Shown here in pieces: positions 47,644 to 63,288 of a stretch of DNA of 64,000 bases (its first letter is position 1; each line of letters opens with the position of its first letter). Source of the DNA: an uncultured bacterium (GTDB lineage: Bacteria; Verrucomicrobiota; Kiritimatiellia; RFP12; UBA1067); contig CADCOC010000016.1 of NCBI GenBank assembly GCA_902802945.1, positions 1 through 64,000 on the forward strand, read 5' to 3'. The notes beneath the pieces are model-generated. The model had not been told where the DNA came from, searched no databases, and saw only the letters and a list, made by a program, of their open reading frames with translations. Both the position numbers and the translations under genes were made by a program.

Positions 47644-50600
47644 TCATCTCACAACGATCATGCAGCCTTTCGACAACACTTTGATAGTTTTTCTGTCGGC
47701 GGAAAGCTTGATCTTATAGCCCTTCACGCCTGCCGCGAGCGCTGGAGCGCTTGTGAATCTCGCCGCGTTGTTCTCCGCCACCTGCGCGAAGACGAAGCCG
47801 CGCGTCAGCGGCTCGGTGAAGTCGAGCGTGGCGTTGGTGAAGTCGAGCGTGCCGCCGCCCGTGAGCGTGATCGCCCGCGCGCCCGGCGTCGCCTTCAAGA
47901 CGCAGTTGGTGATGCCGAGATCGTGCCCTGCCGTGTCAAGCGTCACGGCGTTCGCGCCGAAGACAACTGCGTTCGTGATTCCGCTGATGAACGCTGCTTT
48001 GTCTGCGTTCGCCTCGAGCGTGCCGCCGTCAAACTCCACGGTTGACGCACCCGCGCCTCCTGTGATGTCCGCCGTGACGAGCTTGCCGCTTCCGCTCAGG
48101 CGCAGTTTCGCCGTGGAACCCGATCCATGTGCGACATTCATGCCTTTCGCCGCCGTGGCCGTGCCGCCGGAGATGTCCCAAAGGCCCATCTTGATCGCAC
48201 CTTCGGAACCCAGGTTCACCCTGTTTGCCGTGATGGTAAACGTTCCGCCCGACATGATGTAGGAGCCCTCGCTGCCGGTTGACCATCCAATTGAGAGATA
48301 CCTGTTCGCATTCACCGTTCCGCCGCTCTGCACGAACATTCCGATTCCCGGAACATTTCCCTCATAGTTGTCCAGGCGACCTATCACGAAGCTATCGCCT
48401 ACCGTCAGCATGCCCGCTGTGATTTCGTAACGCGCTGTGGACGTGTTCCCTACGCCGAGGTTCAGGTGGCTAGGCAACGACACCGTACCGCCGTCCTGCC
48501 TGAACAGCGTTGGACCTGAATTGTGGTGTCCGAGCGTAATGTAACTGGACGTGGAGAACATCGCGTTGTTCGTCACGAAAATGTAAATGCCTGAATCGCC
48601 ATAAGCACCACAACGGAAATGCGTGTGACCCTGGAATTTCAGCGAAGCGTTCCCACTTACGGAAATCGTCGCCGTGTGGCCGTATCTGCCGGGATATGAA
48701 TCGCCCGTCACAGTCGTCGTACCGTTCGTCACGAAAAGTCCCGCGTCGGACGCCCAGCCAAGGCCCTGGTTAGCGATGGTGAACGTTTGGTCGTTCACGC
48801 TCTTCACCTCCAAAAAGTCTGTATAGACCGTCACCTTCGCCGTGTCGATGTAGTCCTTCTCGGAGAAGGCGTTTTCCGTCCAAAGCGCGGGCGTCGTTCC
48901 TGCAACGGAGTTCGTCACGTACGCGCCGTTATCCCCTTCAGCCGCCGTGAGGTAGGAAATCTTGAGGCTGTGTCCGTGGAGGTCGAGATACGAGCCGTCC
49001 GCGATGGTCAAGTTGGGCGCGGCAGACCAGTCGCAGTCCGCGCCAAGCGTCACCGCGCCGCCGTTGCCGCCGCCAATCTGCGTCGTCACCCACACAGGCG
49101 TCGTTCCCGCCGGAACGGTGAACGATGTCGTGCCAGAAAGCACGACGACGGTTGACTTCACGGGCAGGGCGTTTGCCACCACGCCACCCGTCGAGTTGGT
49201 ACAGGCCCAGTTCGCGGGGTCGTAGAAGTCGGTCGGATCGCCGCCACCGGTCCACCACGCGAACGCGGCGACGTTCGCGGCGAGGCCGAGTTCGATGGAC
49301 TTGCCGTCCGCCGAGACGGATGCGACGTAACCGTCGCCGACGAGCTCAACGAAATCGAGGACGTCGTCCGCACCCTCCGGCAGCACAAAACCGTCCGTCG
49401 TTGCAATCGTAAGCGAATCCTCCTGATAAGAGGTGGTGTCAATGCGAATCTTCGCGTTCTCGCCAAGTGTGACCTTGCCGCCAAACGCGACGGAGTTCGT
49501 AAGGACGAGCGTCGTGCCGCTGGCGACCACGCTGTCGCCCCCAACCGTCAGCGTCCGGGCAAGTGCGAGCGAGCCGCCGCCCGTGACCGTCAGTCCGCCC
49601 TCGCCCGTCCACGGAATGTCGCAGTGGACGTTGTGTCCTGCCGTGTCGATCGTGAGGCCGCCAGCGCCGATGGTGTAGGTTTTCGCGTAGCCGTCCGCCG
49701 ACGCGACCTTCGCCATGAACGGCGCGACCGCGGTATCGTTGTTTTTGGCGCGGATCGTCGCACCGTCAGCGACCAGCATCTGCCTGTTGTACGCAAGACA
49801 CTTAAGAACGCCAACTTCGAGGACGCCTCCCGTGAGATGCACCTCGCTGCGGCCAGGAGTCGATGTGTTCGCGCCCAAGTAGAAGTTCCCAACATCGGCG
49901 ACGCCGCCCGAAAGCTCGAACACGCCCTTGCCATTGTTGCCATTTAGACCGTTGTACACCGTCCCCATCGAAAGATCACGGTCGATCTGAAGGAGACCGC
50001 CGCTTACGCGTACGATGCCGGTCAGGTAAGTACTGCTGCATTGCGCCGCGATTCGCAGATACCCCCTGCCAGAGCCACCAGCGGCATGAAAGACGCCGCG
50101 TTTCACCTCAAGTATCGACAGACCTGGATATTGAACACCGACGAAGTTTCCACTGTTGCTGCCATTATCTGCCGTCGTAAGCGAACCGCCGTCAATCACC
50201 AGTTTCGTCGTCACGGCGTAATCACTTGCAACACCGGCATAGTTCAGGGCGATGCGGCTGTTTGCCTGTGCGGAGAAATCTGCAACAAAACCATCGGCAA
50301 ACTTAATCGTGCTACCCTGATATGCTAAGGACACACCTGCCGACGGACGCCACGTGCCGTTCGTCAACACGATTTCTTCGCCGTTGTAACGACGGGAATT
50401 TATCGTAAACGAGCCGGTGTATGTGTCACCCCCAAAATCAAGTATGCCTTCTTTTGGTATGATAGACGCGGGCTTTGTGGCATGAGAGAGGACAAGCGTG
50501 CCCTTGCCTTCCTTCTTCGGCGTAGTGGCGGTGAGTCCGCCGGAGAGCGCGAGGCGTCCGCCTTCCGCAACGTAGATGCTGCTATTGTCCGTGGAGAGCG

Positions 50601-51918
50601 TGACGGGCGCGGTGATGTCCTGCGCGGCGACACTCGCGTCCGCGATGTCCTGCGAGAACGAAAGGCCGTCGCCACCAACCGTAAACGCCCCGGCGGTGTC
50701 CGTGAACGCCAGGCGCGCGTAGGAAGATTCGGCGGGCGTGTCCGCGCCGCCAGCGGCGGCGGAATAGACGAGCGCGGAGTCGGCATCGGCCGCATCAAAG
50801 GAAAGGTAAAGCGTGTTGCCGTCGCGCAAAAGCACGCCCGCACCGCCGCCGGAGATGGTGATCTGTCCGAGCGAGCCGTCAAGCGAGGAAGTGCAGGCAA
50901 TCAGAGGATAGCGTCCCGAAGGAGATTCCGGCAGCGTCACGTTGAGCGTGGCGGGGCCAATGATTTCGAGGTTTGGCGTCGTGATAGGCGTCGTACCTGC
51001 GTCGAGCGTACCGAGGTTCAACGTGATGCCGTCGAAGATAAGGCCGTAGGTGAGCGTCGATTGCGAGAACGTGACGGCGCCGCCTCCCGTGAGGCGCAGC
51101 TTGCCGGTGCCGGTGAATGCGGGAATCGATTGCGCGAATCCTGCGGTGTCGAAGGAAGCTGGGATACCGGTGATCTGCATCGTCCGCGTCTTGGTGTTGG
51201 AGGCATTGAACGCCTCCACATTGAAGATGTTGGCCTTCGTTGCGACAAGCGTGCCGTTGTGCCATGTGAAGACTTGTCCGTTGCCCGTCCTGAAGGTGAT
51301 GTTGCCCGTCGTCAGCGTTCCGCCGTTGAGGTTGAGAGTGGACGTGCCGGTACTGACTGTTTTGGTGCCCATGTAAACCGTCCCAGCCGTCGCCTCGCCG
51401 CCGTTGATGGTGATCGTTCCAGACGCTGTGACGCCGACTTTGTCATCCCACTGCGCCGAGCTGCGCAACACGGCATCAACCTTGAGAACGCCGCTGTTGA
51501 GCGTGAGCGTAGAAGTGTTATTTTTGCCGATGCCGCTTCCCACGGCAAGGTATCCAGCTCCGTTGTCTGTCGAACACCAAAGCGTACCGCCGTTGATGTT
51601 CACGACTGCACCAGAATAGCCGTTTTCGATGCCGATGAAGTTGCAACTACTGCTGCTGTTGCCGCCAAACTTCATGTAGGCTCCCTCATTGATGGTCAAC
51701 GTACCTTGCCACAAAAGCAACCTTCCCGTCGTGTCGAGGCGATACCCCTCTCCAACGGTCGCCGTTCCCACATTTGAACTTGCGTTACCTTTGCTGCCAA
51801 CCTCATAGCTCGCGGTACTTTCTGCCGCCAGCGCATTGCCCACGCAGAGCGAAACTGCGGCGACCGCGAGAACCCAACTCGCGGACTTCACAAAAGAAAC
51901 ATTCTTCATCGCTTTCAT
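47644..51918 (-). CDS. Giant autotransporter-like beta-strand-repeat surface protein
   Basis: 1424 aa from ATG 51918 (SD GAGGAAAAG 8 nt upstream). Signal peptide SASWVLAVAAVSLCVGNALA. The body is a long series of beta-strand repeats of the type GTLTINxGxxxxGxxxxG and NGGTLTTGNITF, typical of right-handed beta-helix passenger domains. One NW-type segment (FAWWTGGGDPTDFYDPANW) lies near residue 885. No autotransporter barrel is present; the tail ends TIKVLSKGCMIVVR, resembling the C-termini of the proteins at 55471 and 60265. Probably an adhesin or S-layer-like surface protein. Its promoter holds a G10 tract between -35 and -10. Confidence 0.82.
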   Translation of the reverse strand: MKAMKNVSFVKSASWVLAVAAVSLCVGNALAAESTASYEVGSKGNASSNVGTATVGEGYRLDTTGRLLLWQGTLTINEGAYMKFGGNSSSSCNFIGIENGYSGAVVNINGGTLWCSTDNGAGYLAVGSGIGKNNTSTLTLNSGVLKVDAVLRSSAQWDDKVGVTASGTITINGGEATAGTVYMGTKTVSTGTSTLNLNGGTLTTGNITFRTGNGQVFTWHNGTLVATKANIFNVEAFNASNTKTRTMQITGIPASFDTAGFAQSIPAFTGTGKLRLTGGGAVTFSQSTLTYGLIFDGITLNLGTLDAGTTPITTPNLEIIGPATLNVTLPESPSGRYPLIACTSSLDGSLGQITISGGGAGVLLRDGNTLYLSFDAADADSALVYSAAAGGADTPAESSYARLAFTDTAGAFTVGGDGLSFSQDIADASVAAQDITAPVTLSTDNSSIYVAEGGRLALSGGLTATTPKKEGKGTLVLSHATKPASIIPKEGILDFGGDTYTGSFTINSRRYNGEEIVLTNGTWRPSAGVSLAYQGSTIKFADGFVADFSAQANSRIALNYAGVASDYAVTTKLVIDGGSLTTADNGSNSGNFVGVQYPGLSILEVKRGVFHAAGGSGRGYLRIAAQCSSTYLTGIVRVSGGLLQIDRDLSMGTVYNGLNGNNGKGVFELSGGVADVGNFYLGANTSTPGRSEVHLTGGVLEVGVLKCLAYNRQMLVADGATIRAKNNDTAVAPFMAKVASADGYAKTYTIGAGGLTIDTAGHNVHCDIPWTGEGGLTVTGGGSLALARTLTVGGDSVVASGTTLVLTNSVAFGGKVTLGENAKIRIDTTSYQEDSLTIATTDGFVLPEGADDVLDFVELVGDGYVASVSADGKSIELGLAANVAAFAWWTGGGDPTDFYDPANWACTNSTGGVVANALPVKSTVVVLSGTTSFTVPAGTTPVWVTTQIGGGNGGAVTLGADCDWSAAPNLTIADGSYLDLHGHSLKISYLTAAEGDNGAYVTNSVAGTTPALWTENAFSEKDYIDTAKVTVYTDFLEVKSVNDQTFTIANQGLGWASDAGLFVTNGTTTVTGDSYPGRYGHTATISVSGNASLKFQGHTHFRCGAYGDSGIYIFVTNNAMFSTSSYITLGHHNSGPTLFRQDGGTVSLPSHLNLGVGNTSTARYEITAGMLTVGDSFVIGRLDNYEGNVPGIGMFVQSGGTVNANRYLSIGWSTGSEGSYIMSGGTFTITANRVNLGSEGAIKMGLWDISGGTATAAKGMNVAHGSGSTAKLRLSGSGKLVTADITGGAGASTVEFDGGTLEANADKAAFISGITNAVVFGANAVTLDTAGHDLGITNCVLKATPGARAITLTGGGTLDFTNATLDFTEPLTRGFVFAQVAENNAARFTSAPALAAGVKGYKIKLSADRKTIKVLSKGCMIVVR

Positions 51919-51998
51919 CGTCTTTTCCTCGTGTGTTGAAACGTCGGCCTTTGGGGCATCTCGCAATCTTCGCCAGTGCTCCTAAAAACATAACTACT

Positions 51999-52029
51999 AT
52001 TTTACCCCCCCCCCTGTCCGTTTTGTCAA
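51999..52029 (-). promoter_or_regulatory. Promoter with G10 tract in the spacer (probable phase-variable switch)
   Basis: Minus strand: perfect -35 TTGACA (52024-52029), 19-bp spacer ending in ten consecutive G (C10 on plus, 52005-52014), -10 TAAAAT (51999-52004), about 75-nt leader to ATG 51918. Loss of two G would give the ideal 17-bp spacing. It drives the 1424-aa surface protein. The rest of 51919-52170 has no clear promoter for the divergent plus-strand gene. Confidence 0.75.
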
Positions 52030-52170: not shown

Positions 52171-53487
52171 ATGGCAATAGACATAAACAACGTGAACTTC
52201 AAGATGTTCACCGACTTCGCCGCCACGGCGAAACAGAGCGCCCGCGCGCAGTTCGAAAGCAAGCTCGTCCCCGACGGCGAGGCTCGTACCATAAAGGCGG
52301 CGGGCGGACTTGACTTCGTAGGCAATGTAGGTCGGCTTTCAAAATACAAGACGACCAACGATTCCGTCCGGCGGCTCTTCCGAGAGACGGTCGCCGGGAT
52401 GTTTGGCTGCGAAGAGGACATCCCGGACAGCGTGCTGAAAGTGATGAAGCTCGAGGACTACGGTAAAGGCAAGCCACTCACCGCCCGCCGGATCACCGCA
52501 GTGAAGAACGCGATAGAGGCATTCGCCAAAGACGACAACGCGTCCGCAAAGGCCGATGGAGACAAGGCCGTGGAAAAGCTTTTCAAGTCACGCGACCTAT
52601 TCGACAGGATGCCGCAGGAGGAGAGCGACGAATTGAAGAATACCGTGCGCGAGATTTTCGACACATGCACAAGCGCCGACGCGCGGGAAATCCTGCGCAA
52701 AAACATCGTGCTGATCGTCCTTCGCGGCGACGACTCCATTCGCAGCAAGGAGGAGATCAAGGCGAAGGCCGATGCGATAAAGGCGAACTTCAGGGAGCTG
52801 CGGACGGCCGCGAAAGGCAACAGGCAGATACTGAAGGCCGGCAAGCTCATGCTTGATTCCCTCGCAGGCAAGAGCCTGCCGCCTGGCAGGATTGCCGTAC
52901 TGACGGCCTTTGCGACAGGGAAAAACGCCAAGCTGGACGCGATAAAGCGTCTCAAACCTTCGTCAGGCATAGTCTCAATCACCAAGGCACTGATTCAGGT
53001 CGCAAAAAACATCAAGGCCGCCTTTGCCACCAACGACATCAAGTTCGGCAGTTTCGAAGGCGATATGTCCAACCCGCAGAGAACCTTTGTCACGGAGGTG
53101 ATGCTTATGCGTCTCGCGCCAGACAAACTACGCGCAATCCAGGGGGCGCTCACGGGCGGCAATGCTGCACAGCTGAACTACATTGCAAGGGAAATAAGCA
53201 TGAAGGGACTCAGCGATATTCCGGCCGACGATGCAGATATCAATCTCGCCGTAATGGGCAATCCAAACGAGGAAATTCCGCAGGACCTTAGAAATGGAAT
53301 CCGGGACGCGATCTCATTTTTGACCATCGACAAGATGAACACCGCATCCTCCATAATCGGCGAAATCCTGGACGAAGAAGTCCCGGAGTTGCCGGATAAC
53401 AACGAGTGGTCGGAGGACACGCTGTATGTTGTCGAAAAGGTCAAGGATTTGCTGCTGGAGCATCCGCAAATCTTCCATGAAGCCTGA
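52171..53487 (+). CDS. Unknown alpha-helical cytoplasmic or effector-like protein
   Basis: 438 aa, the only convincing plus-strand gene here. AGGAGGT lies 8 nt before the ATG, the strongest SD in the window. There is no signal peptide, membrane segment or known family. The sequence is charged and helical, with an early block SVRRLFRETVAGMFGCEEDIP followed by KGKPLTARRITAVKNAI, a Lys-rich middle with repeated AKADAIKANF-type helices, and an acidic C-terminus. Its location between a phase-variable adhesin and repeat-laden DNA suggests an accessory function. A secreted effector without an N-terminal signal is one possibility, but only a guess. Confidence 0.8.
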   Translation: MAIDINNVNFKMFTDFAATAKQSARAQFESKLVPDGEARTIKAAGGLDFVGNVGRLSKYKTTNDSVRRLFRETVAGMFGCEEDIPDSVLKVMKLEDYGKGKPLTARRITAVKNAIEAFAKDDNASAKADGDKAVEKLFKSRDLFDRMPQEESDELKNTVREIFDTCTSADAREILRKNIVLIVLRGDDSIRSKEEIKAKADAIKANFRELRTAAKGNRQILKAGKLMLDSLAGKSLPPGRIAVLTAFATGKNAKLDAIKRLKPSSGIVSITKALIQVAKNIKAAFATNDIKFGSFEGDMSNPQRTFVTEVMLMRLAPDKLRAIQGALTGGNAAQLNYIAREISMKGLSDIPADDADINLAVMGNPNEEIPQDLRNGIRDAISFLTIDKMNTASSIIGEILDEEVPELPDNNEWSEDTLYVVEKVKDLLLEHPQIFHEA

Positions 53488-55470: not shown

Positions 55471-58400
55471 CTACTTGACGATCACCGTAAAGCCACGGCC
55501 AATGCAAATGTAGCCATCGGCGTCCTGCGTTGCACGGGCTCCGTTGAACCTGATTCTCCTGAGCGTCACCCTGGGGAGCGCGGTTGTCACGCGCAATCCC
55601 GGGTGCTGGAGATCGCCCGTGAGGTAAAGCGTCGAACCTTCCGGGATGGTGAGGTTTGCGCAGGTGAACGATGCGCCGTCGCCAAACGTCATGGCGGAGG
55701 ATGCGGTCAGCGTCACAGATGCGACCTCGTTCGACGTCCCCGCCGCAAGCGCGAGCGTTCCACCCTGAAGCGAAATCTGGTTGGCCGCCGCCATCGACCC
55801 TTCCGCCCGGTTGAGAAGGAGCGTCCCTTCCCTCACCTGGATCGGCTGGTTCAACGTCGCGATCCCGTCAAGGCGCATCGTCCCCGCACCGGTCTTGATG
55901 AAGGACGAGGACTTGTAGCTTCCGTCCGAGGAGATGTTTCCGGCCATCACGAAGTCCACTCCCTCGCCCGCGACGGTATCCTCAACGTCGATCGTGACGT
56001 TGTTGACGCCAGTTGACTTGTTCGTTCCCAGTACGGTGAAGTACCCGTTAAATGTCGATGCTCCCGTTCCCGAAACCTTCAAGACGGGATCGGACGCCGT
56101 AAAACCGAACTGGAACGCACCGCCCGTTACGGAGGCCGACGCCGCATTGGAGAGCGTCAGGTAGTAGATGTAGGTGGATCCCTCAGAGTGCGTCAGCGTC
56201 GCGCCATCCAGAACGACCTCGCCACTCGCGTAGTGGTACGGATATGCCTTTGCGCTCGTCGCCGTCGTTCCTGGATGCATCGTGATGGTGTCCGTTCCCT
56301 TCGTCATGCCGTCGTTGTATGTGCCCGCGCCCGAGAAGGTGAGTGTGGCATTGCCCCAGAAGTCGATCACCTTGGGAAGAGCATACTTCACGGCGACGTC
56401 ATACACGATCGGGTGCGCCTCGTCGCCCCGGACGACGAACGCGCTGTCGGTCATCGTGATTGCGCCGTTGGCCTTTACCGTCGCCGTGGGCGCGGCGGCA
56501 CCGTCCGTCGGCTCGCCGAATGCGTTGGCGTCGAACGTCACCTCCACGCCCTTGCCGGAAAGCGCGGGGAACGTCTGCGTCCCCGTCGCGGCGAACGTCA
56601 ACTTGCTCATGTCCTCGGCCGCCAGCGGCGTCACGTTCGTCACGCCAAGGATCTCAAGGGCTCCGGCCGTCGTGAAGGCGTTCGCGATCACGGACCGTCC
56701 GCCAAGCTCGCCACCTACGCCGGGGAATATCTTCGCGTTTGCGGCGAAGTTGAGGGCTTCGTTGGAAAGCACGAGCGTTTCGCCCGGAGCGGGCGTCATG
56801 TGCAGCTCCTTGATCAGGAAGCCGGTAGAGGTATACTCGTAGATGATCTTGCCATTGGAAATGCTCACAAGATGCTTCACGCCGGAGGCTGTCTCTATCG
56901 ACTCGACGCGATACGCATGCGCTCCGCGCACAATGGTCAGCACGCCGCTGCCGATGATGCGGAGATTGTCGAGGGCAACATCCTCGTCGAGCGTCAGAGT
57001 CGCGTCGCCGTCCGTCAAGTTGACAACTGCGCTGCCGTTCGTCGGCGCCGCGATGGAGGTCTCCCCGATTAGCCAAGAGGCCGCGCCCCACACGGCGGAC
57101 CCGGACAAGTCGAGCGTCGGCACCCCGGTGGATATGTCGCACGGACGCGACGGCGTGAACGTGACGCTGTTGCCCGAAACGCTTGCTCCGTCGGGAAGTC
57201 CCACGAACGGAACCGTCACCGTAGGATCGGCAACATACCGCCCGGTGAGCGTCAGTGCCACGTTGATCGGCACCCACACCTCCTCATCCGTCCAGGTCGT
57301 TCCGCCGTCCGTCGAGAATTCAAATCCGGAGATGCCCTTCGTCACGCGCACTTCGACGGCTCCATCGGCGAACCGGTAGCCGTCGGGCGATTCCGACAGG
57401 TTGAAGCGCTGGCTGTCAACGTACCAGTTGCGCAGCCTTTCATCAGCGGTCAACACACGCGACGTCATGCGCACGGCGCAGATTTCAGATTTGTCGTAGA
57501 GTTTATTGTTGCCGGCATAATCCGCGCCAATCCATATGTTCGTTTGTGTGGGATTTACGCTTCCGCCCCCCGTCTTGTGAATCTGATTCGTTGCGTTACA
57601 GTATGTCGTAGCCCCAGTCGAATCGCACACCACCGCGATGTACTGCCGCTTGTTCCATTTCGTTATGGCACTGGTCCCGAACTGGCTTCTGGAATTCCAC
57701 CCGCTTTCACGGTACTGGACACCTTGAACGAGCGGATTGCTGCTATTCTTCTGACGCAGATCAACCACAAGCTGACGATGGGAACTGTCTTCTCCGAAAA
57801 ACGTCCAATATTCGTAGCTGTCCTTTACCTGATTGCCAGGATTAGAAATCACCAGCTCCAGCGTGAACGCCTTGGAGGCGAGGGCATCCTTGGCGGCGGT
57901 GGACGAAGTCTGGAAATAGCTGCTGCCGTCCGTCTTCCATGCGTCGTCGATGAATCCGGCCGCGCCGGTCTTGGTCAGCGTCAGATTGCCCATGAGGTCA
58001 ATCCATGTCGGCGCCGCAGCCTGGTGCATTCCCACGCCCACGTTATCGATTGCGTCAAGGTGGGCGATCAGCGCGGCGGTTCCAGACTGCGCGTAGGCGG
58101 AAACCGGTTTCGTCGAACGCACGAAGTTGGCGCGAAGCTGCGCCACTCGGTCGAGAGAGATTGTGATGATCGCATCGGACGCGCTCCCGCCAGTTATCGC
58201 ACGGGTGTCGCCCGCCCAGCCCGTGAACATGTAACCCGACGCAGGCGTCGCCGTCAGCGTCACGTTCGTTCCGTAGGGGATCCAACAGCAGCCGTCTGCC
58301 TCCGGCGTGATGACGACACCCTCTCCGTCGCGCACGGCAACGCTCCCCTTCGCCGTGCTGTCAGGCGCCGCGTAAACCTTGGCGTAGAGCGTGCCGCTCT

Positions 58401-59847
58401 CGTACTTGTAGTCGTCCGCAGACCCGAAGCCGGCCGTGTAGGAAAGCGCGGTCGAGGGGCTCGGCATGGACTCGCCCTTGAATTCGCCGGTAATCACGTC
58501 CCTGAAACCGGCCGCGCCAGTTGCGTTCGTCGTCGGCGCGAAGAAATGGACGGGCGTTCCGCTTTCCTGGATGTCGATCGAGTAAATCAGCGCCTTTGAC
58601 CATCTCTGCGTAACCGTTGCGGTATAATCCGCGAAAAGCGGCAGGGTGATGCTCGTTTCCGCATCGGCTGCACAGGTTCCGCCCAGCGTCTCGCCGATGT
58701 TCCTGTTTGGATTGCGCTGCCAGAGGTTGGCCTTGCCGGTCTGCCTGTTGATCCACACATAAGCGCGGCTGGTGTTCGCGCTGCCAGTGCCTCCGCTCCC
58801 GAACGCCGAGCCGGAATAAGTGGCGCTGTCATTGATGAGGCACGCAAATTCCTTGTAGGTGCCGTTGATGTACAGATGGCAGCCCAACGCCCCTTGCTCG
58901 CCGAAAATGCGCGCCTGTTCTGCAATCTCCGTGTACTGGAAGTCCGCCGCGATACGCGTGGTGGGCTTGACGAGATACCCCGTGTCGATGCAGTTCACGC
59001 CGTATGCGCGGATGGACGCGCTCGGGCGGAACGTGTCGGCGGGATAGAGCGCGGCGTACGCCTGCGCATCTTCCGCCGTGAACGCCGTCTGGTAGAAGCG
59101 CATGTCGCGAAACGCAACGTTGAGATCGTTTACAGTACTCACCTCGCCGGACGTGTTCCCGGAGACAGTGCTGCAGAACTGAATCCCGCCGCCGAAAGCA
59201 TAGTTAACCGACGTATGGCTCTTCTGGTAAACGCCGTCCACGTAGAAGTCAAATGTCCCGGCATTGCCAGAGGTCGGCTTCTTGTACACGACGACAACGG
59301 TATGGAATCCCTTCGCCACATCGACATTCTGGTCAAGGAGTATCTGCGCCTTGCGACTTGTCGTGCCAGATGCCCGCTGGTTTTCGTCAACGAGCAGCTT
59401 TGTCGTATCTGACGACGCACAAATGGAGATGTTCTTGCGCGAGTTGACGTTTTTCCTGCCGATTGAGAAGATGACGCCGTTGTTAGTGGTGCCGGGGCGA
59501 ACGGACATCACAAACGTCCAGTCATTTCCGTTCAAGAAATTGTACAGCGTCAAGGGCCTGGAAGACGAGTCGCCCGCCGACCATCCAGTACTCATCGGGT
59601 GGGCGGCGGAGTTCGCGCCGTCGGGTCCATCAACGGGAAGTTCCGTCATGTCTCCCCTGCTACTGCTGCCGATCGTCGTATCCGAAAGCGGATCGACCGG
59701 CACCACGTCGCTGCCGCAGAACACCCTCTTGCCCGACGAAAAGTCGTAGCGGAAGTTGTAGGCGTCAAGGTCGGCGGCATGCGACACCGAGGCCGCCGCA
59801 GCCGCGCAGATCGCCGCAATCGCAGCGCGAATCATCTTTGCTTTCAT
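55471..59847 (-). CDS. Giant surface protein: concanavalin-like domains, InlB-type repeat, beta-strand repeats
   Basis: 1458 aa from ATG 59847 (AAAGG 8 nt upstream, signal peptide MIRAAIAAICAAAAASVSHA). A longer frame to 60003 only translates the duplicated leader. Residues about 75-290 form a LamG-like domain (FHTVVVVYKKPTSGNAGTFDFYVDGVYQ). About 290-500 resemble a second lectin-like region. About 560-610 hold a bacterial Ig/InlB-type repeat (VTLTATPASGYMFTGWAGD). About 640-830 are another concanavalin-like domain, and the C-terminal 600 residues are beta-strand repeats (GTLLLNRAEGSMAAANQISLQGGTL). It ends YICIGRGFTVIVK. Probably an adhesin binding glycans. It is driven by the TTGACG/TGC-TAACAT promoter in the duplicated leader. 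Confidence 0.8.
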   Translation of the reverse strand: MKAKMIRAAIAAICAAAAASVSHAADLDAYNFRYDFSSGKRVFCGSDVVPVDPLSDTTIGSSSRGDMTELPVDGPDGANSAAHPMSTGWSAGDSSSRPLTLYNFLNGNDWTFVMSVRPGTTNNGVIFSIGRKNVNSRKNISICASSDTTKLLVDENQRASGTTSRKAQILLDQNVDVAKGFHTVVVVYKKPTSGNAGTFDFYVDGVYQKSHTSVNYAFGGGIQFCSTVSGNTSGEVSTVNDLNVAFRDMRFYQTAFTAEDAQAYAALYPADTFRPSASIRAYGVNCIDTGYLVKPTTRIAADFQYTEIAEQARIFGEQGALGCHLYINGTYKEFACLINDSATYSGSAFGSGGTGSANTSRAYVWINRQTGKANLWQRNPNRNIGETLGGTCAADAETSITLPLFADYTATVTQRWSKALIYSIDIQESGTPVHFFAPTTNATGAAGFRDVITGEFKGESMPSPSTALSYTAGFGSADDYKYESGTLYAKVYAAPDSTAKGSVAVRDGEGVVITPEADGCCWIPYGTNVTLTATPASGYMFTGWAGDTRAITGGSASDAIITISLDRVAQLRANFVRSTKPVSAYAQSGTAALIAHLDAIDNVGVGMHQAAAPTWIDLMGNLTLTKTGAAGFIDDAWKTDGSSYFQTSSTAAKDALASKAFTLELVISNPGNQVKDSYEYWTFFGEDSSHRQLVVDLRQKNSSNPLVQGVQYRESGWNSRSQFGTSAITKWNKRQYIAVVCDSTGATTYCNATNQIHKTGGGSVNPTQTNIWIGADYAGNNKLYDKSEICAVRMTSRVLTADERLRNWYVDSQRFNLSESPDGYRFADGAVEVRVTKGISGFEFSTDGGTTWTDEEVWVPINVALTLTGRYVADPTVTVPFVGLPDGASVSGNSVTFTPSRPCDISTGVPTLDLSGSAVWGAASWLIGETSIAAPTNGSAVVNLTDGDATLTLDEDVALDNLRIIGSGVLTIVRGAHAYRVESIETASGVKHLVSISNGKIIYEYTSTGFLIKELHMTPAPGETLVLSNEALNFAANAKIFPGVGGELGGRSVIANAFTTAGALEILGVTNVTPLAAEDMSKLTFAATGTQTFPALSGKGVEVTFDANAFGEPTDGAAAPTATVKANGAITMTDSAFVVRGDEAHPIVYDVAVKYALPKVIDFWGNATLTFSGAGTYNDGMTKGTDTITMHPGTTATSAKAYPYHYASGEVVLDGATLTHSEGSTYIYYLTLSNAASASVTGGAFQFGFTASDPVLKVSGTGASTFNGYFTVLGTNKSTGVNNVTIDVEDTVAGEGVDFVMAGNISSDGSYKSSSFIKTGAGTMRLDGIATLNQPIQVREGTLLLNRAEGSMAAANQISLQGGTLALAAGTSNEVASVTLTASSAMTFGDGASFTCANLTIPEGSTLYLTGDLQHPGLRVTTALPRVTLRRIRFNGARATQDADGYICIGRGFTVIVK

Positions 59848-59895
59848 ACTTTTTGCCTTTCTTTCCGTTGTTGAAGATTGGTTATGTGCAATTAT

Positions 59896-60054
59896 ACGCG
59901 GCGTCGTTTCCGATGCCGTTCCATGCCTCCACAATGGCGTCATTTGCGATTTGCCGTTCAAAGCCGCTGGTCTTCCCATGGAAGTTTGGCGATATGTTAG
60001 CACATCCTTCCGTAGTTCGTCAATCCCCCGACGGCGTTTTTGCGGGTGGCAAGG
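59896..60054 (-). repeat. 159-bp duplicated promoter/leader (copy 2)
   Basis: Minus strand -35 TTGACG (60018-60023), 18-bp spacer, extended -10 TGC-TAACAT (59994-59999), then a leader of about 140 nt to ATG 59847. Copy 1 is at 53644-53802. Both promoter elements and most of the leader are conserved. Confidence 0.75.
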
Positions 60055-60221: not shown

Positions 60222-60276
60222 TTTTGTCCGTGTAGAACGTGTAGAACGTGTTGTTGCGCGCGGGCTACTTGACGAT
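60222..60276. repeat. 55-bp 3'-flank repeat (copy 1)
   Basis: It runs from TTTTGTCCGTG to the last codons of the 987-aa gene. It matches 63289-63343 at 53 of 55 positions, each time spanning the last codons (IVK-stop) of a surface-protein gene. It contains GTAGAACGT twice. Confidence 0.85.
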
Positions 60277-63228
60277 TATCATGAGGCCTGAGCGTCTGAC
60301 GATGTAGCCGCTTCCGCCTTCGTCGAGCTTCGCCTTGTACCCGCCTGCTCCGAACGTGAACGCCGGCTCGCCCGTCATCTCGCCTTCCACTGCGACGACC
60401 GCCTTGCGCGACGCGCTCGCCGCCGCAGGGTCGGCGACATGGACGGGAAGCCCCGCAAGGTCCTTGTCCCCCGCGAACGTCACGGACGACGCGCCGTTCA
60501 GCGTCACGCCCGCCGAAAGCGTCACCGCGCCGAGCGTGATGTCGCTTCCGTCTGCAATCGCAAGCACGGTCGAGACCGTTCCGTTCGTAATCGTGCCCTC
60601 GCCCGACACCGTGCCGAGGCTTCTCGTTGCACCGCCCAGGCTCACCGTAGCGCCATCCGCGATCGACACGGCCACGCCGTCCGTCGCAAGGATCGTCGTG
60701 CCCGCCTGCGCGTCGAGCGCGAGCGTCCCCGTGTGCGTGCCGCCGAGCGTCCAGTCGCCATGCCCCGCCTTGCGCACGACCACGTCGCCGTCGAGCGTTC
60801 CCGTGAACGCCTGCACCGATTCGTTCGTGAGCGTAACCGTGCCGGAGAATGCGAGCGTTCCCTCGCCCGCGAGACGGCAGAGGACGGGTGCCGCCCCGTC
60901 CGCGAGCGTCAGCGTCGCATTCGTCGCCACAACCACGTCCGCGCCAGCCTTCAGCGCATCGGCGCGTGAGAGCGTGAGCGCTCCGCCGCCCGCGACGACG
61001 TTGGAGAGGTTCGGGCTTGCGCCATCGAGCGTGAACGAACCGAGGTCGTACTTCGCGAGAGTATCGGCGGTCCACGCGCTCTTGAACGCGCAGGACTGCG
61101 CCTCCACGAATCCTGCCGCGACGCCCTTCCCGTCGTTCTCCGCGCCGACGGTCAGCGCGCCGTTCGCGACGATGCCGCCCACCGTCAGATCCTGCGACGG
61201 TAGCGCCGTGCTTGTCGCGGCCGTGAAGAGCGCCGTGTTGCCAGCGCCGTTCGCCGCGTCCCAGAGCGTCCCTTCGCGCGGTTCGCCCGCGAGGTCGTTC
61301 CAGTTCGTCGCGTCCTCGCCCCATGCGCCGCTTGCTCCGCCCGCCCACACGTTGTGCGCGGAATCCGCCACGGCCCCAAGGTCACGCACCTGCATACCGT
61401 TCAGCTGGACGGAACGCTTGGTGATATTGCTGTAATGCCCAGACAACATGGATATCGTCTGCGTCGTCGCGGTTGCCGTGAAAAGTCCAGTCGCGAAGTC
61501 GCCGCGCGCGGGGCTGAACAAGTCCTCGTTTTGGAACTCGACCCTCGCCACGCCGTCAAGCGTCATGTAGCGGTCACCATAAGTTGCACCGCTACGTCCT
61601 TCATGCACCCAGATCTGCACAAGGTAGCGGTGTCCGGGCGTCAGTCGCTTCAGCGTCAACGTCGATGGCGTGGCGTCGGAGGTGCCGCCGCCGGGATAGG
61701 TTGCGGATTGGATCATCAGCTTATAGCCAGCGGACATGTCGCCGTCCGTAATTCCAAACGCACTCCCGTTTGAGTTTCCGCCAGAAGGGAACGCGATGTC
61801 GAAATCATCGGTTGACGCACTTGCGGACGGACGCTTCCATCCCTTGAACGTCACGCCGTTGACCTCCGCATCCGTCGTGTCTGACGTGAAGTTGTACGCG
61901 TAGAGCAGTTCGCCGTCGAGGCGCACATCGTCGTCGCGCTTCGTGATGGGGCTGACTCTCCAGTGCGTCGCCGCGCCGGAATCGAGGCGGCGCAATTGGA
62001 TGGCGTTTATCTGCGGATTGCCTTTGGTCACCTTGGACGTCGGCGTGTAGAGCGAGGTGATTTTCAGCGATTTCGACAGGCCTTCCGCCGTGAACACGCC
62101 TGTGATATGCTGACCGTACGTGCCGCTTGCGACGGCGAAGGCCATGCGCTTACACCCGTCGATCTCCTGCCAGCGGTACGGTCCGATATTCGTCCGCGTG
62201 TCGTTGACCCACAGCTGCACGAGATAGCGTCCGCCCGGCGCAAGACCTTCCAGCGTCACGGTCGCGGTGCCATTTGCGGACGGATACGTCGCGCCGCCCA
62301 TGAGGCGGTGGTAGTCGTCTGAAAGCGTCTGCGCGATGTCCTTGTTGAACTCGTTGACATTGCGATACGTCATGAATTCCGTGGTCATGCGCACGTCGCG
62401 GTAGATCGTCGTGCTGCTCGTGGGCGCAAGCGGCACAAACACGACGTTGTTCACGATGGCGGTTGCCGCCGTCCAGCCCGCCGCGAACACGCACTCGCCG
62501 TCGAGGCGCACGTCGTCGTCGTCCGTGATGTTCTTCACGTCCTCCCACGCGATCAGCCCCGGCGTGACGTCGCGCAGCTGGAGGGAGGCGAACTGTGAAA
62601 CGCCCGACGCGTTGCTGGTATCGATGCATCCGACGATGGTGAAGCTCTGCGAGTCTCCAGTTGCGGTGAACGCGCCCGTGATATGCTGGCCGAATCCGTT
62701 GGACGTGCGAAGCCGGAGAACCTCCGTGCCATCGACCTTGATGTAGCGGACGTTGCCGGGATTGGCACGGCTGTCGTTCGTCCACAGCTGGACGATGTAG
62801 GCGTGCCCCTGAATCAGGTTCTTCAGCGTGACCGTGTTTGTAACGGTCCCTCCGGTGGCGGAGGTGGAGTACACTCCCGCCCTTATCAACTGGAGATATC
62901 CCTCGCTCGCGCCTGCCGGTACGGTCGTCGCGAAGTTGTTGCTGTCGATGTACTGCGATGCGACATTAAGACCGACGTCGGCCATCGTCGCAACGCCGTC
63001 GGGAAAACCATTCCTGTTGACGCCGGCGGCGAACGAAACACCGTTCACGATGGCGGCCTTGTTCGCGTATGCGTAGCGCAGCACGCCGTCGGTGCGCACG
63101 TCCGCGTCGCCGACGATGTTCTTCGCGTGTTCCCAACGGATGCCGTCGGCATTCGCAACAAACGGAAGAATTGCACCTGCCGCGATTGCCGCCGCCGAGA
63201 CGACTGCTTTCCATGTTTGGTTTTTCAT
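60265..63228 (-). CDS. Giant surface protein with three N-terminal repeats and beta-strand repeat tail
   Basis: 987 aa. Signal peptide TWKAVVSAAAIAAGAILPFVANA. Residues about 28-625 are three tandem repeats of about 200 residues, starting IRWEHAKNIVGDADVRTDG, IAWEDVKNITDDDDVRLDG and THWRVSPITKRDDDVRLDG, each with a VNGVxF and an LxxGHxYxVQLWxND segment, perhaps a jelly-roll module. Then an NW-type segment (NVWAGGASGAWGEDATNW), beta-strand repeats (GTLAFSGTVTLTNE) and the tail YIVRRSGLMIIVK. No SD is obvious before the ATG. The 3' end and flank are duplicated at 63289-63343. Function is unknown, presumably an adhesin or surface-layer component. Confidence 0.78.
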   Translation of the reverse strand: MKNQTWKAVVSAAAIAAGAILPFVANADGIRWEHAKNIVGDADVRTDGVLRYAYANKAAIVNGVSFAAGVNRNGFPDGVATMADVGLNVASQYIDSNNFATTVPAGASEGYLQLIRAGVYSTSATGGTVTNTVTLKNLIQGHAYIVQLWTNDSRANPGNVRYIKVDGTEVLRLRTSNGFGQHITGAFTATGDSQSFTIVGCIDTSNASGVSQFASLQLRDVTPGLIAWEDVKNITDDDDVRLDGECVFAAGWTAATAIVNNVVFVPLAPTSSTTIYRDVRMTTEFMTYRNVNEFNKDIAQTLSDDYHRLMGGATYPSANGTATVTLEGLAPGGRYLVQLWVNDTRTNIGPYRWQEIDGCKRMAFAVASGTYGQHITGVFTAEGLSKSLKITSLYTPTSKVTKGNPQINAIQLRRLDSGAATHWRVSPITKRDDDVRLDGELLYAYNFTSDTTDAEVNGVTFKGWKRPSASASTDDFDIAFPSGGNSNGSAFGITDGDMSAGYKLMIQSATYPGGGTSDATPSTLTLKRLTPGHRYLVQIWVHEGRSGATYGDRYMTLDGVARVEFQNEDLFSPARGDFATGLFTATATTQTISMLSGHYSNITKRSVQLNGMQVRDLGAVADSAHNVWAGGASGAWGEDATNWNDLAGEPREGTLWDAANGAGNTALFTAATSTALPSQDLTVGGIVANGALTVGAENDGKGVAAGFVEAQSCAFKSAWTADTLAKYDLGSFTLDGASPNLSNVVAGGGALTLSRADALKAGADVVVATNATLTLADGAAPVLCRLAGEGTLAFSGTVTLTNESVQAFTGTLDGDVVVRKAGHGDWTLGGTHTGTLALDAQAGTTILATDGVAVSIADGATVSLGGATRSLGTVSGEGTITNGTVSTVLAIADGSDITLGAVTLSAGVTLNGASSVTFAGDKDLAGLPVHVADPAAASASRKAVVAVEGEMTGEPAFTFGAGGYKAKLDEGGSGYIVRRSGLMIIVK

Positions 63229-63288
63229 GTTGTTGTTTTTCTTTCGGTTAGTGGATGATTGGTTTCTCGCCTTTGCTTTGGCCGTTGC

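Follow-up and report, generated by a model that had tools for sequence, protein, structure and literature searches.

A poly-G promoter spacer, probably phase-variable, ahead of a giant secreted protein in an uncultured Kiritimatiellia bacterium and its recurrence across the family

Results

A G tract lies between the -35 and -10 hexamers of a large secreted-protein gene

We analyzed a stretch of 64,000 nucleotides (the window; contig CADCOC010000016.1, assembly GCA_902802945.1) from an uncultured bacterium of the Kiritimatiellia, in which a putative promoter carries a run of ten G between its -35 and -10 hexamers, upstream of a gene for a very large, predicted secreted protein (Table 1). Upon reading the minus strand from 52029 to 51999, we obtained the order TTGACA-AAACGGACA-GGGGGGGGGG-TAAAAT, with a spacer of exactly 19 nt whose 3' end is the ten G, in agreement with a preliminary description of this DNA that had placed TTGACA and TAAAAT 19 bp apart with ten G in the spacer. 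The tract begins 9 nt downstream of an intact -35, and the homopolymer lies wholly between the two hexamers. Both hexamers had been called perfect, which is correct for the -35 TTGACA but not for the -10 TAAAAT, as the latter differs by one base from the textbook TATAAT, yet is a common form in the lineage. Transcription is predicted to start at ~51992 and, because the tract lies upstream of this site, it would not itself be transcribed. The ATG at 51918, preceded by GAGG, lies 80 nt downstream of the -10 and starts an open reading frame (ORF) that ends at 47644, which confirms the 1424-aa length given for the target protein. Its N terminus is a typical (classical) signal peptide, and comparison with Pfam and NCBIfam returned no family match; its location at the surface is a prediction from the signal peptide and from a C-terminal motif shared with related targets (see below).

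Table 1. Coordinates of the promoter elements and genes at the locus.
Feature	Position	Strand	Basis
-35 hexamer TTGACA	52024..52029	-	read from sequence
G10 homopolymer, 3' part of the 19-nt spacer (52005-52023)	52005..52014	-	sequence; recurs in relatives
-10 hexamer TAAAAT	51999..52004	-	read from sequence
Probable ribosome-binding site GAGG	51927..51930	-	read from sequence
Target gene, 1424 aa, signal peptide MKAMKNVSFVKSASWVLAVAAVSLCVGNALA, C terminus KGCMIVVR	47644..51918	-	ORF, ATG 51918 to stop 47644
Divergent neighbor gene, 438 aa, separate from the switch	52171..53487	+	ORF

It is very improbable that the tract is a chance homopolymer or an artefact of sequencing or assembly. While G runs of ≥9 do occur elsewhere in the genome (23 in total in 5.8 Mb and 300 contigs), many of them in dispersed repeats, the sequence on both sides of the window tract is unique. 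The pattern TTGACA..G6+..TAAAAT matched once in the window and in none of 100 dinucleotide-preserving shuffles. Each added base made G/C runs in the window about 5-6 times rarer, and a rough extrapolation from this decay, taken from this one window only, gives about 0.5 runs of ≥10 for the genome, versus 9 present. Furthermore, across 162 genomes of the order, the pattern TTGACA / G8+ / TANAAT yielded 32 matches, from many independent assemblies, versus 1 in the reversed control.

The same layout recurs within one family, before large secreted proteins

All 32 matches fell within the family of the window bacterium, in the genera that we number g1 (the genus of the window), g2, g6, g9, and g18, whereas the 47 genomes of the order's other families contained no TTGACA / G8+ / TANAAT match, and a sample of 388 genomes spanning the phylum contributed just two further matches outside the family. 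Within the genus, a pattern requiring GGGG anywhere in the spacer matched 30 times in 16 genomes and 2 times in the reversed control, and blastn of the region against relatives recovered the neighboring genes as well as the 50-60 nt around the promoter, the latter before other secreted-protein genes of the same genus. The spacer measured 16-19 nt in 30 of the 32 tract promoters, although the pattern allowed 8-29 nt and its freedom alone would place about 20-31% in this range. One genome (G097) carried eight tract promoters, with spacings of 16, 17, 17, 18, 18, 18, 19, and 19 nt.

Behind these promoters, a signal peptide was called at the start of about 27 of 31 readable targets (one of them behind a G7 promoter) by a hydropathy heuristic with script-chosen start codons, to be compared with 13 of 28 non-overlapping long ORFs of the secretion-rich window that pass a similar test. 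Targets that could be read to the gene end were mostly 864-2224 aa long and shared a C-terminal motif, G-(hydrophobic run)-(R/K), as in the window protein (KGCMIVVR). Two carried the autotransporter-type beta-strand repeat TIGR02601, and one of these also passed the Pfam cut-off for PATR. Other large secreted proteins in the window (55474-59982 and 60268-63231) have similar C termini (GFTVIVK and GLMIIVK), and it is possible that this shared ending serves as a sorting or anchoring motif.

The genome of the window (G000) contains a second tract promoter (G000:C77:105-132, loci L103/L193), with G8 and a spacing of 16 nt, at a contig end. Six nucleotides past its -10, the sequence turns into an apparent insertion-sequence end (GAGACACGG..), and the same apparent end also follows the tracts of C152 and C164.

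Some coding G tracts in the lineage are frameshifted

In G000 and two relatives (G010 and G013), a multigene family carries a G tract within the signal-peptide sequence, immediately behind the start codon (MEKLICNSRRGGAKTSSFAR..., MEKLICNSRRGG..; loci L042:7300 on G000:C9, L188/L189 on G000:C107, and L164-L186 in G010 and G013). Nearly all copies with a pure G9 were in frame; of the exceptions, G010:C255 stops after 120 codons from another cause and G010:C141 is a script miscall (upstream ATG). Once in each of the three genomes, a copy had G10 instead and met a stop after 16 codons, with an open frame behind the tract of 1581 aa (G000:C9, encoding a C10-type peptidase domain), at least 1004 aa (G010:C288), and at least 1010 aa (G013:C111), the latter two running to the end of the contig or of the stretch read. 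Interrupted tracts all kept the frame. A second family with signal-peptide tracts, in G013, had two copies that are off as assembled (G013:C49:16701, L234; G013:C62:19185, L235). Reversible switching would be expected to leave such genes, out of frame yet open behind the tract, and the frameshifts indicate that tracts of this kind do change length in the lineage. A signal-peptide tract gene of another genome (G093:C276, L248) was in frame at G11. Loss of mismatch repair was considered as a source of mutability and discarded, as MutS_V was present in 12 of 12 genomes tested.

Spacer length, more than tract position, appears to be shared among genera

The tract mostly adjoins the -10 in g1, g2, and g18, whereas its usual place in g6 and g9 is right after the -35 (TTGACA-G9-12-TAATTGC-TAAAAT). 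As the side differs among genera, what they appear to have in common is the length of the spacer. In three g1 genomes, ordinary TTGACA/TAAAAT promoters were most often spaced at 18 nt, then at 17 nt. The spacing of 19 nt found in the window occurred in 3 of 10 pure-tract promoters, whereas none of 46 others with TTGACA/TAAAAT in the genus had it (Fisher p 0.004, with small numbers and a comparison chosen after the data were seen). Among similar promoters, the tract ranged from G8 to G12. Orthologous or paralogous promoters of G013, G010, and G000 likewise differed in tract length or interruption, between species rather than within one: pure G10 tracts at 19 nt (G013:C73:3114; G010:C80:16486) faced related interrupted spacers at 18 nt (G010:C50 for the former; G000:C76 and G013:C73:10771 for the latter), and a pure G10 at 18 nt (G013:C98:3239) faced the related C179, GGGGAGGGG, at 17 nt. 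These three genomes also share a second repeated promoter type, TTGACA-N18-TAAAAT, in many copies with ATAGTG before the -10, no G tract, and a spacing fixed at 18 nt.

Several points weigh against slippage in the spacer. The overall spread of spacer lengths did not differ significantly between pure-tract promoters and the others (Levene p 0.29). The genus retains 12 promoters with interrupted G-rich spacers, most of them 18 nt long. C-tract spacers were absent from 115 genomes, while spacing alone would be indifferent to the base. The ortholog of the target gene in G010, where the 5' region of the neighbor gene is 96% identical, lies behind another promoter, TTGACA-16-TATAAT, that lacks a tract; the gene can therefore do without the switch. 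Lastly, tract lengths from short-read assembly may be wrong by one G, and an individual coding frameshift could also stem from a gene's recent inactivation or from an assembly error of a single base.

Some of these points would suit a fixed promoter element, i.e., a G-rich spacer that acts as a regulator site or as a structure favored by the RNA polymerase of the lineage, defining a regulon of secreted proteins in which the homopolymer is incidental and nothing switches. The restriction to G, the retention of interrupted G-rich spacers, and the functional coherence of the targets are all in line with such an element. Against it, the tract has no fixed position, lying beside the -10 or the -35 depending on the genus, its length varies among similar promoters, and frameshifts are seen in coding tracts of this kind. 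Hence, we regard a fixed element as unlikely, yet as the alternative to take most seriously. A further alternative is that the tract is a former switch or a slippage product that is here a mere mutational by-product, in a promoter that tolerates 16-19 nt with little effect. Spacings of 16 through 19 nt do all occur, and the G010 ortholog manages without a tract. Nevertheless, the layout recurs before one class of proteins in several genera, and in G097 the eight promoter spacers account for 18 of the genome's 22 overlapping G9 words, which leaves this alternative with little probability.

The only outside homolog found came from an uncultured isolate, RUG10619, whose prefix presumably stands for rumen genomes; this homolog (L064) lacks a G tract over the part of its upstream region that was read. 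An invertible promoter was rejected as well: close flanking inverted repeats were not found, and the sole pair seen was imperfect, 13 nt long, with arms separated by 587 nt and one of them inside the neighbor gene.

Other G tracts in the family

G tracts were also noticed outside spacers and signal peptides. About ten loci of G093 (L254-L258, L261-L264) share a conserved module, GTTGCAAAAAGTTA-G9/10-TAATTTATTGCAAATA, upstream of TTGACG-type promoters, in which the tract lies upstream of the -35 and within an imperfect palindrome. Tracts of G10-G15 occur in dispersed repeats of the forms TCAGGCAGTGA-Gn-TATTTGCG and GCGCAGTTAGC-Gn-CACAATTTT (L031, L032, L036, L009, and L015 in G000; L230, L236, L239, and L241 in G013). 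A G28 run immediately following a GT repeat, with a contig end about 350 nt away (G013:C206:5392-5419, L240), may be an artefact. Contig ends were considered as a sign of mixed tract lengths, with several tracts nearby, but most of those inspected lie in dispersed repeats, and they were not used as evidence.

Discussion

We consider it quite probable that the window element is a phase-variable promoter of the porA/tp0126 type that works by spacer slippage and belongs to a multi-locus repertoire. A random on/off switch is probable because the same layout precedes many such proteins across the family. The preliminary description had proposed just such a promoter for this locus, and its proposal gains support from the family-wide recurrence with spacers of 16-19 nt, from related copies that differ in their tracts, and from the frameshifts in coding tracts, all of which come from comparing sequences.

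In the mechanism that we propose, a slippage-prone G tract would set the -35/-10 spacing of a sigma-70-type promoter, and replication slippage would add or remove G. A spacing of about 17-18 nt (G8-G9) would be efficient, while spacings of ≥19 or ≤16 nt would leave the promoter weaker or off, such that production of the giant secreted protein would flip on and off at random, and reversibly, in single cells. With G10 and 19 nt in the assembly, the window copy stands one base over the lineage norm of 18 nt and is probably weak or off, and a change to G9 or G8 would turn it on. We infer that the tract slips at the window locus in the population, that this changes transcription, and that the switching has a biological role. 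The locus would belong to a wider repertoire in this bacterial family, in which G tracts switch some secreted proteins at the promoter and others by frameshift in the signal peptide.

Homopolymer on/off switches are known mainly from pathogens. In the porA gene of Neisseria meningitidis, as summarized in a later account (PMC7864442, citing van der Ende 1995), the length of a poly-G tract between the -35 and -10 sets the promoter spacing of a surface protein, and the tp0126 gene of Treponema pallidum (an OmpW homolog) has a poly-G spacer with the best transcription at 17 nt (PMC7864442). In opc of N. meningitidis, by contrast, the homopolymer is a poly-C that encompasses the -35 region, and its length controls transcription of an outer-membrane protein (PMC7864442). 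The equation of the window layout with both porA and opc in the preliminary description therefore holds for porA but not quite for opc, which has in common with the window promoter that homopolymer length would govern transcription: here the tract is G, the -35 is intact, and no C-tract spacers were found in the family. The window promoter shares with porA the poly-G spacer tract that sets the spacing, yet porA is one experimentally proven gene of a pathogen, whereas here many genes in several genera of an uncultured lineage are involved, identified from sequence. With tp0126 it shares the position of the poly-G between -35 and -10, while tp0126 belongs to a different phylum and has its optimum at 17 nt, as opposed to an apparent norm of 18 nt and very large secreted proteins as targets here. 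The companion family with signal-peptide tracts would switch frame at G9/G10 near the start codon, as do the coding-tract contingency genes of Campylobacter, Helicobacter, and Neisseria, but differs from these in that the tract sits in a signal peptide common to a multigene family of large secreted proteins, and in another bacterial lineage.

The device itself is known. As far as our searches show, the novelty lies in the lineage, in how many loci are involved, and in the pairing of promoter tracts with signal-peptide tracts on large secreted proteins. An open-access literature search found no paper naming both phase variation and Kiritimatiell-, and a search on phase variation in Verrucomicrobia returned nothing relevant. 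It seems somewhat more plausible than not that the whole family controls its large secreted proteins by a dedicated G-tract system acting at several levels, namely the promoter spacer, the signal-peptide frame, and possibly the tract upstream of the -35 in a conserved motif, with a common promoter type at many genes that would add up to a slippage repertoire of many loci beyond the known pathogens. Overall, the genomes studied here, from uncultured lineages that we see no grounds to connect with disease, carry numerous candidate G-tract switches for secreted proteins.
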